DNA from: Rickettsiales bacterium
GTDB taxonomy: Bacteria; Pseudomonadota; Alphaproteobacteria; Rs-D84
Length of the DNA: 64,000 nucleotides
Assembly (NCBI GenBank): GCA_031266915.1
Contig: JAISAB010000020.1
Location: forward strand, 1 to 64,000
Reading direction: 5' to 3'
The translations under genes and the position numbers were made by a program. The notes under the pieces are model-generated. The model saw nothing but the letters and a program-made list of their open reading frames with translations. It was not told where the DNA came from and ran no database searches. This document shows, in pieces, positions 10,105 through 49,042 of the stretch. Position 1 is the first letter of the stretch. Every line of letters begins with the position of its first letter.

Positions 10105-10770
10105 TTAATTGTTAACTGAATAATAGCAATTTCCTATGTATTCAATGGTGCCTGTATCATCCTCGTTAGTCGCGCCGGCTGGCATATAACAGTTCCCAAT
10201 AACAATACTTCCCGATGCGGACGTCGCGTTGTCGTTTCCGGTCGCGGTCTTGCAGCTTTCGCACCCGCTCAGGCCGTTCGTGCTTCTGCCATAATATCCG
10301 GCTGCGCATCTATAGTCTGAAAAACTCGGGCATCCGCTGCCGCAGGTCACGATTCGCCGTTCATATCCGACTGTATCGGCGACCGTCCAGCCAATGGTAT
10401 CAGCGTTTTCACAAGCCATGCAAGAACTGACATCAGGCGGATTGCTGCATGCTAAACCCAAATTATTCATAATCTCCAGAAAATCCAGGCCGGCGTCAAA
10501 CCAGTTTGATACTTCAGCGAACTGAGAGCCAATGATAAGGTTTTGAACTGAACACATCTGAGAAAACTGAGCTTGCAAACCATAGCAAATAACATTATCT
10601 GCAAAATATTGGACATGTTCGCCATCGCTTTCCCCAACAAGATAATAAATTCTGTAATAAGAGAGCAACTCTGTTGTGAAATCGCAGACAATGTCGGCGT
10701 CCGCGGGCACTGGGTGTGACAGGCCGATTAATGCGGCGGCGCAAATAATAAACGCCTTTGATTTTTTCAT
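10105..10770 (-). CDS. Cys-rich secreted protein (YRC..GYYG..C..C C-terminal domain)
   Basis: Signal peptide MKKSKAFIICAAALIGLSHPVPADA; YRCAAGYYGRSTNGLSGCESC...GNCYMPAGATNEDDTGTIEY; AAGGAGGTT RBS. Confidence 0.7.
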   Translation of the reverse strand: MKKSKAFIICAAALIGLSHPVPADADIVCDFTTELLSYYRIYYLVGESDGEHVQYFADNVICYGLQAQFSQMCSVQNLIIGSQFAEVSNWFDAGLDFLEIMNNLGLACSNPPDVSSCMACENADTIGWTVADTVGYERRIVTCGSGCPSFSDYRCAAGYYGRSTNGLSGCESCKTATGNDNATSASGSIVIGNCYMPAGATNEDDTGTIEYIGNCYYSVNN

Positions 10771-11003
10771 TCCAACCTCCTTTTTGTTTGGGAACGAAAC
10801 AACCGCCCAAAAAGGCGGTCAGGAGGTTGCTAACAATTCGTATGAAATTGTGCCGCGCCTTCGATATATAACGCCAGCCCTCCTGACCAACAGCCAGGAG
10901 CTTTATTTCCATCGCAACAAAAAAACACGCAAAACACGCGCTATTCAAAATTGCGACACATACGAAAGGAGTTAGCACACTCCATCGCGGGAACACCCCG
11001 ACG
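10771..11003 (-). ncRNA. Structured leader RNA, copy B
   Basis: - strand: CGGGGtgttCCCG; GGAG[TGTGCTAA]CTCC with distal TTAGCA; CTCCTG / CAGGAGG / CCTCCTGACC; terminator-like ACCGCCtttttgGGCGGTtgttt. Promoter TTGAAA-17-TATACT. Confidence 0.75.
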
Positions 11004-11095
11004 ACAACGGCAGTATAATTGAAAGCGCCCTGCGTTTCAACAATTTTCTTTTCATGCTTGCGTTTCGGAAACGATTTATATATAATCCGCCGTAC

Positions 11096-17056: not shown

Positions 17057-17920
17057 TTATGTTCCCGACGTGTACGCGCATCCGGTCGCCTCGACCGTGA
17101 AAGTGCCTGATGCGTCGTAATAGGTCCCGGCGGGCAGTTTGCATGTGCCGATGGCAGCATTGAATCCCGCGACATTCGTTCCGCGCGCCTTTATTGTCTG
17201 CGTGCTGTTCGTGTAAATAGTGTCGGATTCCGGGCACTGGGCGCAGCTGGCCACAGCCGCGCCGATAGGTCCGTAATACCCGCTCTTGCATCTGTATCTT
17301 GTGCTGCGGTTGGAACAAGTGCCGGTGCTGACGCAAGTTTCGCCGGTGCAGGTTCCGTCGTATTTCTCTGACTGATAATTCATTCCGGCAACATCTGTAT
17401 AGCCGCTGGAGCCGGCGCACGCTGTGCATAACGCCAGGCACTCTTCGCACACTGGCCAGCCAGCACTGTCGCGCCGCCCCGTATCGGAATATCCGTGCCA
17501 GCAATCGGTGCCGCAGCATTCATATTGTCCGTATTGGCCGCAGCTCGTCGGCGACGAATAGTATGTCAATGTTCCGTATCCTCCGCCGGTTGGTATATCC
17601 GCAAGACCGCAATATCCATTAAAGTGTCCGCTTGCCATGCATTTGGGCTCATAAGTCTCGCTTGGCGGGTTATAGCGGAATGACTCTTCAAAATTTACTA
17701 TGTCCGACGATTTGAAGCAAAGGCAGCTTGCATAAGACTGCGTGCACTCGGCCACCGGATAACATTCGGTGTAGCCGGCGGCGCGCGCGCCGTCATTACC
17801 GCTGACATCGCCTTCGCAATTCCAAGGCTCCACCTTGGGCGCGACCCAGACCGTCCAAGAGTTTGCAAACGCGTTTCCAACAAACATGTACACTGCAATA
17901 ATCAAAATTGATTTCTTCAC
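17057..17920 (-). CDS. Cys-rich secreted protein (YRC..GYYG..C..CP C-terminal domain)
   Basis: GTG start after AGGAGGTTCAG; signal peptide VKKSILIIAVYMFVGNAFA; YRCKSGYYGPIGAAVASCAQCPE...GTCKLPAGTYYDASGTFTVE. Confidence 0.7.
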   Translation of the reverse strand: MKKSILIIAVYMFVGNAFANSWTVWVAPKVEPWNCEGDVSGNDGARAAGYTECYPVAECTQSYASCLCFKSSDIVNFEESFRYNPPSETYEPKCMASGHFNGYCGLADIPTGGGYGTLTYYSSPTSCGQYGQYECCGTDCWHGYSDTGRRDSAGWPVCEECLALCTACAGSSGYTDVAGMNYQSEKYDGTCTGETCVSTGTCSNRSTRYRCKSGYYGPIGAAVASCAQCPESDTIYTNSTQTIKARGTNVAGFNAAIGTCKLPAGTYYDASGTFTVEATGCAYTSGT

Positions 17921-18144
17921 CTGAACCTCCTTTTTTTCAGCGAATGAAAAAACCACCTTGAAAAGGTGGCCGGGAGGCTTCTAACAATCTCATGAATTGC
18001 GCCGCGTATTCAGTATATTCCGCGACCCTCCCGACCTTACGGACGGGATTATTTCTCGGCATGGCACAAAAAAAGCGCAAAAGCGCGCCAAGCCATGACG
18101 CATGAGCAGAGGTTAGAAGACCCCATCATGGGAACACCCCATGA
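17921..18144 (-). ncRNA. Structured leader RNA, copy C
   Basis: - strand: CATGGGgtgttCCCATG; GGGG[TCTTCTAA]CCTC with distal TTAGAA; CCCG / GGTCGGGAGG / CCTCCCGGCC; CCACCTTTTCAAGGTGGTTTTTT. Promoter TTGCTT-17-TATAGT. Confidence 0.75.
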
Positions 18145-18221
18145 CATTCGAACTATACCGGAACAAAAATTATAAAGCAAGAGCTTTCTGGGCAATTATA
18201 TGGATAGAGCACCTGACCTGC

Positions 18222-18424: not shown

Positions 18425-18488
18425 GCTTATGCCAATCCTTTTAAATCACCGCTTGCAAAAATCATCTTTGTAATGTAAAATAACTTAC

Positions 18489-18703
18489 GTCGCGGAGCGT
18501 TTCCGCGACGGGGTGTAGAAACCTCATCGTATAATTCCAGCCACGGCTGGAGGGCGGAGAATATATTGAATAAACCGCACAATTCTACGAGTTGTTTCTA
18601 ACCTCCGGCCGCTTTTTATAAAGGCGGTTTTTTTGCTTCTGTATAGGAGTACAGAAGCGGTATAGTGTGCATGCGGGGGGCCTCATCAACCCCCCGTTTT
18701 TTT
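18489..18703 (+). ncRNA. Structured leader-type RNA, orphan copy D
   Basis: GTCGCGGAgcgtTTCCGCGAC; GGGG[TGTAGAAA]CCTC with distal TTTCTA (18595-18600); CCAGCC / GGCTGGAGG / CCTCCGGCC; two terminator hairpins. Promoter TTGCAA-17-TAAAAT. Confidence 0.75.
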
Positions 18704-29201: not shown

Positions 29202-29226
29202 AAAGCCCCAAAAGGGGCTTTTATTT
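29202..29226. terminator. Terminator hairpin
   Basis: AAAAGCCCCaaaAGGGGCTTTTATTTTT. Confidence 0.8.
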
Positions 29227-29601
29227 TTAATCCTTGTACACCAGAACCGCCCAATAGCTATCGGGCAGGTTGTTCATGCTCACATCATGGGCCAGCACCC
29301 TGTAACAGGATTCGGATGGAACCATGTTTATCAGAATCATATCCGGATTTATTCTTTCTGCGTCTTCGCCCGTTTGTATACCGGTCATGAATTTCGCGCT
29401 TGCTTTTGATTTTGAAATATTAATCAGTCCGTCGGTTTTCACACACTGGACGATAAAGTCGCCCATTTCCGATGGCGACTGCACGACTTCGCAGTCTTCT
29501 ATAACGTCGGTAATTATTTCATATGGCGTTTTCGGTACATCATCGGCATAGACCGAAAACGGCAGTGCCGCGAACAGTCCAGCTATCAGAGTTCTTTTCA
29601 T
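29227..29601 (-). CDS. Small secreted protein, paralogue of 32259..32633
   Basis: MKRTLIAGLFAALPFSVYADDVPKTPYEIITDVIEDCEVVQSPSEMGDFIVQC. Confidence 0.65.
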   Translation of the reverse strand: MKRTLIAGLFAALPFSVYADDVPKTPYEIITDVIEDCEVVQSPSEMGDFIVQCVKTDGLINISKSKASAKFMTGIQTGEDAERINPDMILINMVPSESCYRVLAHDVSMNNLPDSYWAVLVYKD

Positions 29602-29790
29602 TTGTTTTCCTTTTGGTTATTCGCATGCCAAAAGGAAGGCGGCGGGATTCTGAAAAAATCGCAACTAGAACGACCGCGCCCGTTTTCTGTATATGGCGAG
29701 CGCAATCCCGCTTGGGGCGGGACACGGTTTTACGTGCCTGTCCCGGCACGCTAGTTACGAGATTTTTCAGGTCTCGGTTTCCTTTCGGAT
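29602..29790 (-). ncRNA. Structured leader RNA, divergent copy G
   Basis: - strand: TCCGAAAGGA; GAGA[CCTGAAAAA]TCTC with distal TTTTTCAG (+ strand 29650-29657); CCCGC / GCGGGATT / AATCCCGC; CATATACAGAAAACGG loop; TCCTTTTGG...CCAAAAGGA over the RBS. Confidence 0.6.
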
Positions 29791-29854
29791 ACAAAGGTAT
29801 GTATGCTGAATAAAATCATTGAAATCAAGTAGTTTGTTTCGCTATAATCCGACC

Positions 29855-32228: not shown

Positions 32229-32256
32229 AAAAAGCCTCAATCCCGAGGCTTTTGTT
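32229..32256. terminator. Terminator hairpin
   Basis: AAAAAAGCCTCaatcccGAGGCTTTTGTTTTTT. Confidence 0.75.
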
Positions 32257-32258
32257 TT

Positions 32259-32633
32259 TTAATCCTTGCAGACCAGAACCGCCCAATAATCATCGGGCAG
32301 ATTGTTCATGTCCACACTTTCCGCAAGAACCCTGTAACAGGATTCTGACGGGACCACGTTCACCAGAATCATATCCGGGTTGACACTTTCCGCTTCATCG
32401 CCGGTCGGCGTTCCGGTCGAAAATTTTGCGTTTGCATCCGACTTTGAAATATTAATCAATTCGTCGGTTTCCGTGCACTGAACGATAAAGTCGCCAGTTT
32501 CCGACGGGGCCCGCACGACTTCGCAGTCTTCGATAACGGCGGCAATTGTTTCATACGGCGTTTTCGGCGCGTCGTCGGCATAAACCGAAAACGGCAATGC
32601 CGCGAACAGACCGGCAAGCAGAGTTTTCTTCAT
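32259..32633 (-). CDS. Small secreted protein, paralogue of 29227..29601
   Basis: MKKTLLAGLFAALPFSVYADDAPKTPYETIAAVIEDCEVVRAPSETGDFIVQC. Confidence 0.65.
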   Translation of the reverse strand: MKKTLLAGLFAALPFSVYADDAPKTPYETIAAVIEDCEVVRAPSETGDFIVQCTETDELINISKSDANAKFSTGTPTGDEAESVNPDMILVNVVPSESCYRVLAESVDMNNLPDDYWAVLVCKD

Positions 32634-41312: not shown

Positions 41313-42023
41313 ATGAGATTAGATTGTGAACTTGTCATACGCAAAATTTACCCGACCCGCGCCAAGGCGGCCGCGGCTATTATCGCCGGATTGGTTTCTG
41401 TCAACGGTCTGGCAGCGCCCAAGGCCAGTCTGAACGTGTTACCGCACGATTCCATATCGGGCGCTCCGCTGCCCTATATTTCCGGTCGCGGCAGCTTGAA
41501 ATTGGCCGCGGCGCTGGATGCGTTCAATATCGACCCGACAGACATGCTGTGCCTGGACGTCGGTTCCAGCACGGGCGGCTTTACCGAGGTATTATTGAAC
41601 CGCGGCGCGCGGCGCATAATCGCGGTGGATGTCGGCACGGACCAGATGATTCCGGGGCTGCGAAACGACCCGCGTGTGACGTCTTTGGAAGAAACGGATA
41701 TTCGGATGCTGCGGCCGACGGCCTGCGTCGACTTGGTTGTCGCCGACGTGTCTTTTATATCGCTGGCAGACATCGCGGCCAGTCTGGCGGCATGGAACCC
41801 GCCCAAAATCATCGCGCTTATCAAACCTCAGTTCGAAGTCCCGCGCCGCACCGCCGCCAAGGGCAGGGGTGTTATTAAATCCGACGCGGACCGTGTTCGT
41901 TCTATTGAAGCAGTGACGGACGCATTCAAAGCGGCCGGTTTCCGGCGGACCGGATTAATCGAATCCCCGATAAAGGGCGGCAGCGGAAATATGGAATACC
42001 TGGCAATGTTCACAAACCAGTAG
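41313..42023 (+). CDS. tlyA: TlyA-family rRNA methyltransferase
   Basis: TRAKAAAAIIAGLVSVNG; YISGRGSLKLAAALDAF; CLDVGSSTGGFTEVLLNRGARRIIAVDVGTDQM. Confidence 0.92.
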   Translation: MRLDCELVIRKIYPTRAKAAAAIIAGLVSVNGLAAPKASLNVLPHDSISGAPLPYISGRGSLKLAAALDAFNIDPTDMLCLDVGSSTGGFTEVLLNRGARRIIAVDVGTDQMIPGLRNDPRVTSLEETDIRMLRPTACVDLVVADVSFISLADIAASLAAWNPPKIIALIKPQFEVPRRTAAKGRGVIKSDADRVRSIEAVTDAFKAAGFRRTGLIESPIKGGSGNMEYLAMFTNQ

Positions 42024-43256: not shown

Positions 43257-43402
43257 GGGTTTCTCCGACTAATTCGATACACTTCCTCTCTCGCCCTCTT
43301 TGAACGAGAGATTATCACAAAAATTATTTCTTTGTCAACAAAAACATTGATGATGGATAATCGCCGCTTGCAAAAATCGTCTGCGTGTTATATAGTGCCT
43401 TT

Positions 43403-43617
43403 GTCGCGGAGCGTTTCCGCGATGAGGCTTGATAACCTGTACTTACGGATTCCAGCAATGGCTGGAGGGCGGCGAATATATTGAATAAGTCGTGCAATTC
43501 CGTAGGATTGTTATCAACCTCCAGCCGCTTTTATACAAGGCGGTTTTTTGCTTCTGTATTGGGAGTACGGAAGCGGATAGTGCATGAACGGGGGCCTCAT
43601 CAACCCCCGTTTTTTTC
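43403..43617 (+). ncRNA. Structured leader-type RNA, orphan copy E
   Basis: GTCGCGGAgcgtTTCCGCGA; AGG[CTTGATAA]CCT (43428-43435) with distal TTATCAA (43511-43517); CCAGC / GGCTGGAGG / CCTCCAGCC; two terminators. Promoter TTGCAA-17-TATAGT. Confidence 0.75.
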
Positions 43618-43713
43618 GTACTGGTCGAATATGATTCGCCCCTACACCGGTATGACGATTTGTCTGGTTCCCGGTTCTTTTCTCTGATAGAATGAAACGC
43701 AAAGGAAACGCAT

Positions 43714-47900: not shown

Positions 47901-48058
47901 TTTGTTTTACTCCTTGCAATATTTTTGACAATGAATTTGTCTGCCCCCCATATAGTTACACCAAAAACTATTTCAAGGTCCATAGGAAAAAATATCATTG
48001 GCGGTCAGAATGTTTTTTTACCTCTTGATTTTCCGTCTTCTTTAATCTAGTATTAAAG

Positions 48059-48283
48059 CATCGCGGGGCGTTCCCGCGATGGGGCTTGATAACCTCTTGT
48101 TAGCGTCGTGACGAATTTACACGCTTGTGCGTCTTTTTTCGTATAACGGCGAAAAATCAACTCCTGACTTAGTCAGGAGGGCGGCGATATATCGAAATAA
48201 GCCGCGCAATTCTAACAATTGTTATCAACCTCCTGACCACCCTTTCAAGGTGGTTTTTGCTTTACCTAAAAAAGGAGGTTTTA
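48059..48283 (+). ncRNA. Structured leader RNA, copy A
   Basis: CGCGGGgcgttCCCGCG; GGGG[CTTGATAA]CCTC (loop 48085-48092) with distal TTATCAA (48222-48228); CTCCTGAC / GTCAGGAGG / CCTCCTGAC; CCACCctttcaaGGTGGTTTTT; AGGAGGTT RBS. Promoter TTGATT-17-TAGTAT. Confidence 0.8.
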
Positions 48284-49042
48284 ATGAAATTTAAATTTTT
48301 CGCAACTTTTATGACAATAATTTTGACATCGACGACACATACCTGGGCGGCATCGTGCTGGATAGCTACAAAACCAACCAGCAGTAACTACATCGCATGC
48401 CTGCAGTCGCACACAGGATATTGGAATTGCAATTCTTCCAGCAGTTGCGGCAGCTCACAAGTAACTGCTGTCACAGGCAAACCCTATGGATTTTCTGATG
48501 CCAATACAATGAGCACGAGCGAAATGACGTCCTGCGGTGTAATCTGTACTCCATATGGTTTTAGAATGTTTGCTAATAACGATGCTGAAGCGATTGATTG
48601 CAACGGTACATGGGATTTAAATTCCAGCACTCGCGAAGCAGTATGTCAATGCAACGTTAGAAGCTGCACTGCTTGCAACAGCGTGTCGGTCGAGCAATGG
48701 ATTGCTATGAGCGGAACGGGCACGATCGTGTTCCAAGTGAAGCAGACCCGCACCGCCACGTGTTCAGGAAACACCTGCACCAGCAACGGCAGCTGCTCTA
48801 CCGGAAGCTGGACCAACACCAACAATTACCGCTGCTCGGCGGGATATTATGGCAGCGTTTCGACCAGCAACTACAGCTGCGCGCTGTGTCCGTGCATGAC
48901 AGACACTGGCGGCGTCAATCGCTGCGGCGCCAGTTCCGCCGGTACTACTCTTGTCAGTGGATGCGTCATGGCGACCGAATACGAATTTAACGACGGGACC
49001 GGCGATTATTCATTTACGACCGCATGTCCGGCATCATTGTAA
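48284..49042 (+). CDS. Cys-rich secreted protein (YRC..GYYG..C..CP domain)
   Basis: Signal peptide MKFKFFATFMTIILTSTTHTWA; NYRCSAGYYGSVSTSNYSCALCPC; AAAGGAGGTTTTA RBS. Confidence 0.7.
   Translation: MKFKFFATFMTIILTSTTHTWAASCWIATKPTSSNYIACLQSHTGYWNCNSSSSCGSSQVTAVTGKPYGFSDANTMSTSEMTSCGVICTPYGFRMFANNDAEAIDCNGTWDLNSSTREAVCQCNVRSCTACNSVSVEQWIAMSGTGTIVFQVKQTRTATCSGNTCTSNGSCSTGSWTNTNNYRCSAGYYGSVSTSNYSCALCPCMTDTGGVNRCGASSAGTTLVSGCVMATEYEFNDGTGDYSFTTACPASL

Follow-up and report, generated by a model that had tools for sequence, protein, structure and literature searches.

A short interval in the genome of a gut alphaproteobacterium (positions 48161-48240 of the window, that is, of the whole 64,000-nucleotide stretch of contig JAISAB010000020.1 that was analysed) raises the question of whether a strand that can pair with either of two partners forms a regulatory switch and, if so, what such a switch would respond to. 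An earlier note had described three mutually exclusive and jointly covarying strands in this interval, conserved in all seven leader copies, and had taken them as the hallmark of an attenuator or riboswitch expression platform. The upstream, middle and downstream strands are called X, Y and Z here. The arrangement was found at that place and in all seven copies of the window (A to G). The elements of copy A, to which the interval belongs, are given below with their basis in brackets.

48061-48079, forward: 5' hairpin TCGCGGG-GCGTT-CCCGCGA (sequence; within the c4-a1b1, RF03163, match 48047-48100)
48081-48096, forward: second hairpin GGGG..CCTC, whose loop is the target a1
48086-48093, forward: a1, TTGATAAC, the complement of a' (cognate versus non-cognate test, 0/2000; pair counting)
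48097-48103, forward: b1, TTGTTAG, the complement of b' (cognate test)
48161-48168, forward: strand X, CTCCTGAC (covariation with Y)
48172-48180, forward: strand Y, GTCAGGAGG, the 5' strand of a C4-like closing stem (Y:Z pairing)
48181-48205, forward: conserved arm GGC..GATATATCGAAATAA..GCC (alignment)
48207-48221, forward: hairpin CAATT..AATTG, with b' (CTAACAA) in its loop at 48212-48218
48221-48228, forward: a', GTTATCAA (cognate test and pair counting)
48229-48237, forward: strand Z, CCTCCTGAC (Y:Z 100% paired)
48236-48258, forward: terminator-like hairpin ACCACC..GGTGGT, then a T run
48273-48280, forward: Shine-Dalgarno sequence AGGAGGTT, complementary to AACCTCCT of a'/Z
48284-49042, forward: led gene, a 252-residue Cys-rich protein with a signal peptide and no Pfam match

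Among 42 diverse type-I copies, Y and Z formed standard pairs in 420 of 420 cells, with double changes at 5 of the 10 pairs; with gaps set aside the count runs from 390 to 420 according to the choice of the outermost pair, and none of the cells is unpaired. X:Y was paired in 98.3% of cells across 30 full leaders and forms a contiguous helix of 5-10 bp in every copy of the source genome, G-U being commoner at its outer pairs than in Y:Z. The score for X with the Y of its own copy was 18.7, against 12.4 with a different Y (0/5000 permutations, 86 copies). In folding calculations the two states are nearly equal (X-state minus Z-state, median -1.5 kcal/mol in 85 copies), and before Z is transcribed X:Y has a median probability of 0.97. 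These pairings, the cognate test, the near-equal energies and the early dominance of X:Y thus establish a bistable arrangement of three strands, as far as sequence and predicted folding go. The claim of joint covariation was thus borne out by the double changes in Y:Z and the cognate score of X:Y. The strands had also been placed correctly in the earlier note, with some helices trimmed (the X of copy G is GTCCCGC, and that of copy C has only 5 clean bp).

In the window, covariance models locate seven cores and no more, which correspond to the copies already noted and are a subset of about 86 in the source genome (1,091,825 bases). The core of copy A is anchored at 48172, forward strand; the other six copies are as follows.

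10768-11011, reverse: copy B, leader up to the start codon of a secreted protein; core 10818-10887 (anchor 10887), X 10893-10900, a1 10971-10977
17918-18153, reverse: copy C, leader; core 17969-18035 (anchor 18035), X 18044-18048, a1 18112-18119
17057-17920, reverse: gene led by copy C, a secreted Cys-rich protein
18482-18640, forward: copy D, short, with no adjoining led gene; core 18545-18610 (anchor 18545)
43395-43560, forward: copy E, short, with no adjoining led gene; core 43460-43526 (anchor 43460)
1787-2027, reverse: copy F, type-II leader; core 1837-1919 (anchor 1919), X 1927-1932
29599-29804, reverse: copy G, short type-II leader; core 29641-29712 (anchor 29712), X 29717-29723, a1 29763-29770

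Copies were gathered by a DNA search of the source genome, a pattern scan of a GTDB genome collection and then two covariance models, R1 and R2, which match 52 and 34 places in the source genome, respectively. The pattern scan added 62 copies, all in records of uncultured Alphaproteobacteria, Rickettsiales or proteobacterium, and many of the isolate names suggest ruminant and other animal gut samples. Of 41 genomes sampled from the same family, 39 contained the element, as did 47 of 59 from the order; a single genome has as many as 51 type-I copies. Among 289 genomes of the class, weak matches occurred in nine others.

Around 60 copies are followed, usually 24-58 nt on, by an open reading frame with a Shine-Dalgarno sequence, and promoter-like -35/-10 pairs lie directly 5' of the first hairpin in 74% of cases (18% in shuffles). 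By a simple rule, 50 of 60 led reading frames have signal-peptide-like N termini, compared with 7 of 40 other reading frames of the window. Seven led secreted proteins searched against Pfam gave no match, and another led gene that was tested encodes a helix-turn-helix regulator. A few leaders precede such regulators in a more phage-like context (L207, C4:11089; L208, C9:256; L205, C3:14666). Copy G leads a gene for a 124-residue exported protein; one of two 300-nt copies with 79% identity (29219-29518 and 32251-32550) lies in this gene, and the pair probably represents paralogous genes. The window also holds an intergenic AT-rich repeat family, TAGTGAATAGTGATTAGTGCATAG...CACTATAAACTAAGCACTATTCACTA, with internal inverted symmetry (at 42010, 45016, 49079, 49382, 51297 and 63320).

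About 25 copies of the source genome have no adjoining led gene. Six of these are short (43395-43700 and 18482-18700 of the window; G000 C4:67290, C4:67555, C10:53766 and C20:22811). Those read whole (D, E and C10:53766) look like free-standing sRNA genes and have in common a hairpin resembling GGGGGCCTCATCAACCCCC at the 3' end, to which D and E add a T run. Another gene-less subtype has a stem inserted in the arm (GGAATAAGG..CCAAATA), then GCGCGGTTTTT and a common downstream sequence (G000 C5:1633, C3:44083, C14:9597, C25:15115, C26:64417 and others; L191-L204).

What the arrangement might respond to is indicated by two further pairs of segments. The pseudoknot strand of the earlier note proved to be a', and its partner, the a1 loop at 48086-48093, lies about 130 nt to the 5' side of it, beyond the interval first described. 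Cognate segments have longer complementary runs than non-cognate ones (7.3 versus 5.1 for a1/a' and 7.5 versus 5.5 for b1/b'; 0/2000 permutations each), so that upstream targets are present as in C4 RNAs, and counting of the a1:a' pairs revealed double changes at 6 of 7. The codes of 85 copies comprise 59 for a and 81 for b, and most copies have their own combination of matching recognition segments. Codes common to gene-less copies and leaders were considered as proof of action in trans and rejected: copy E has the a-code of copy A and a different b-code, so that no clear trans partner emerges.

In C4 RNAs, a core of this kind finds a second pair of targets, a2 and b2, downstream. Were the element a canonical C4-type translational repressor, its core would bind a2/b2 at the ribosome-binding site of the gene that follows, as its architecture and homology might lead one to expect. 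However, cognate downstream matches in the source genome were weak or lacking (339 of 2000 permutations as high for a', 74 of 2000 for b'), whereas they are clear in C4 and sRNA-Xcc1 loci. Canonical action through a2/b2 was consequently rejected for the led gene encoded in cis, and we consider this reading very improbable overall.

The kinship itself is well supported by sequence: the leader RNA, whose 3' half is the three-strand switch, appears to be a descendant of antisense RNAs of the C4/sRNA-Xcc1 type, C4 being that of phage P1. At Rfam gathering thresholds the window gives only a tRNA, and a direct assignment of the element was rejected. Below the gathering scores, the 3' half of copy A matches sRNA-Xcc1 (RF02221; 48172-48245, 31.1 bits) and its 5' half matches c4-a1b1 (RF03163; 48047-48100, 24.1 bits, E 4e-4, genome-wide 3e-4). 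Across the genome, all 27 sub-threshold RF02221 matches fall on the correct half and strand of leaders (best 46.0 bits against a gathering score of 53), and 7 of 8 RF03163 matches fall on leader 5' halves (up to 24.1 bits against 46.7), although control genomes too give some weak matches. The C4 antisense RNA model itself (RF01695) gave at best 19.9 bits (E 0.15; gathering score 45), compared with 68.8 for phage P1. Features of a C4-like core are nevertheless present, namely the closing stem, two hairpins, and the a' and b' segments. Tests of the family model and of a2/b2 both went against membership, and for this reason the element should be called a C4-derived leader and not a member of the C4 family.

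Because the covarying address segments differ from copy to copy and both halves resemble C4/sRNA-Xcc1, the likely input is an RNA and not a small molecule. A metabolite riboswitch, with an aptamer joined to the three-strand expression platform, would account for a conserved structured leader with alternative helices and a terminator-like hairpin. It is hard to reconcile with the variable address segments, which leave no single invariant ligand pocket, with the lack of any Rfam riboswitch match, and with led genes that encode secreted proteins of unknown function and no common pathway; very little credence can be given to it. Thus, of the two terms used earlier, attenuator is a fair working description, with which the U-tailed hairpin, the complementarity of Z to the Shine-Dalgarno sequence and the competition of X and Z agree, and metabolite riboswitch is not.

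As judged from sequence, Z is followed by a hairpin and at least four T in 91% of the source-genome copies (3% and 7% in known C4 and sRNA-Xcc1 loci, respectively); in copies B and G the U-run is weak or absent. The outer Y:Z pairs overlap the base of this hairpin by 2-3 nt, and the hairpin is probable in both modelled states (0.78 versus 0.71). Because it forms in both, X/Y/Z is not an obvious terminator/antiterminator pair, and a simple switch of that kind is not favoured. The complementarity of Z to the Shine-Dalgarno sequence is greater for the gene that it precedes than for other genes, and this holds within subtype too (1/5000 permutations); it is slight in about a quarter of led genes.

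Sixty whole leaders were folded as nested structures without pseudoknots; the effects are averages around which individual copies vary. When undisturbed, a1 and b1 were paired with the core (probabilities 0.87 and 0.94), the strand of the a1 hairpin sequestered Z in part, and the Shine-Dalgarno sequence was 53% free. Blocking a1 and b1 in silico, to mimic a bound antisense RNA, lowered its accessibility from 0.53 to 0.37 (0.49 with control blocks, p 2e-6), a predicted effect of modest size; in copy A, pairing of Z with the Shine-Dalgarno sequence rose from 0.03 to 0.99. When X was removed as well, most of the effect disappeared: the blocked leader folded into Y:Z (0.79) and left the Shine-Dalgarno sequence 0.47 free. 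This gives X a role in the model, in which it would keep Y occupied and thereby leave Z free to pair with the Shine-Dalgarno sequence.

Each copy may be read as a leader descended from C4/sRNA-Xcc1 and rewired as an autogenous attenuator, a reading to which we assign a probability of roughly 0.5; we infer the direction of switching and the action in trans from the folding models. According to this proposal, X:Y would form first. In an undisturbed transcript, a1 and b1 would pair in cis with a' and b' and help to hold a'/Z, leaving the Shine-Dalgarno sequence freer. Termination after Z would produce a free core RNA, possibly processed at its 5' end at Y by RNase P in the manner of C4. A free core of the same code could occupy a1 and b1, and the cis pairing would be lost; with Y kept by X, Z would be released onto the Shine-Dalgarno sequence and translation would fall. 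With address codes that differ, the feedback would be confined to the RNA of each gene itself.

A leader that acts purely in cis would need no free antisense RNA. The a1/a' and b1/b' pairs would then be an intramolecular pseudoknot that folds or stabilizes the 5' untranslated region, and the diversity of codes would reflect neutral compensatory drift. The dominance of cis pairing in the computed ensemble and the presence of the segments in one mRNA without a second target speak for this. Such a leader would have no use for the conserved competing strand X, though, and the terminator-like hairpin directly 3' of the core would free an RNA, copies without a led gene exist, and the C4 homologue works in trans (PMC8546580, PMC5320573). 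We regard the cis-only explanation, including its account of the codes, as unlikely.

Strand X could also serve as a gate for RNA processing, a role compatible with the autogenous attenuator. In the X:Y state the base of Y, with its RNase P site, would be hidden; refolding into Y:Z would create a stem like a tRNA acceptor, with ACC as its 3' tail, from which RNase P would free a C4-like RNA. Cleavage at GGW, at the position that matches the base of Y, occurs in P1/P7 C4 and in the C4-like sRNAs of Acinetobacter (PMC5320573), Y starts with GG(T/C) in most copies, which from the letters alone is compatible with such a mark, and the energies of the two states are close. However, the GGW start is absent from copy A (AGT/GTC), several other copies begin with GTC, and known C4s processed by RNase P have no X strand signal; a gate of this kind seems somewhat unlikely.

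Should the autogenous attenuator hold throughout the genome, some 60 genes, mostly for secreted proteins, would each be under the antisense core of their own leader, forming dozens of parallel and separately addressed feedback circuits that work through a two-part code and an X/Y/Z block of the Shine-Dalgarno sequence. This extension is tentative and falls somewhat short of an even chance. If it is true, a phage immunity device came to control the surface proteome gene by gene and throughout the genome. The reduced 1.09-Mb genome has about 86 copies of this amplified C4 architecture, mostly before secreted-protein genes. That host-associated alphaproteobacteria dose many surface proteins one by one is an idea open to testing, and the dozens of RNA-RNA recognition pairs form a natural series in which specificity can be studied. 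A search of the open-access literature found no description of C4-type leaders in Alphaproteobacteria.

C4 RNA is a classic phage antisense repressor. In the annotated c4 leader of phage P1, the elements follow one another as they do here: a hairpin (GTCGTAGC..CTGCGAC, the counterpart of the 5' hairpin of copy A), a hairpin with a1, then b1, a further hairpin and the core with its closing stem, b' loop and a'. This leader also contains a possible X (ACGCCC upstream of GGGGCGT). Like the present element, P1/P7 C4 sits in the leader of the operon that it regulates, whereas the element described here has many copies with differing codes. The same tests were applied to 30 C4 and 29 sRNA-Xcc1 loci from other Pseudomonadota. 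These have cognate a2/b2 targets downstream of the core, for which the leaders of the source genome have no clear counterpart; conversely, a cognate X strand is found in those leaders and gave no signal in the 59 loci, and X as a general property of C4/sRNA-Xcc1 was rejected. In the C4 set, one sliced segment lacked a signal, which slicing and not biology may explain, and the other showed clear upstream and downstream matches.

With sRNA-Xcc1 the element has in common the sequence and structure of the core and the upstream a1/b1. In Xanthomonas integron cassettes this RNA (RF02221) precedes symE (PMC12444791). Its loci (L245-L274) contain cognate a1/b1 upstream and a2/b2 downstream, which suggests that it behaves as a C4-type RNA, although it is not in the C4 clan of Rfam. 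The Group 1 C4-like sRNAs of Acinetobacter baumannii, with many copies in one genome, variable a' segments and reported 5' processing at GGW (PMC5320573), resemble the element in copy number and in the variability of a'; they are reported as sRNAs with unknown targets, whereas the present copies are leaders of secreted-protein genes with cognate a1/b1, an X strand and a terminator.

The mechanism proposed here resembles plasmid antisense-RNA transcription attenuators, such as that of pT181, in that an RNA acting in trans on the leader would shift the balance between competing helices. The C4-derived leaders differ from these in that antisense and target lie in one leader and in the same sense, and in that the predicted effect falls mainly on the Shine-Dalgarno sequence.
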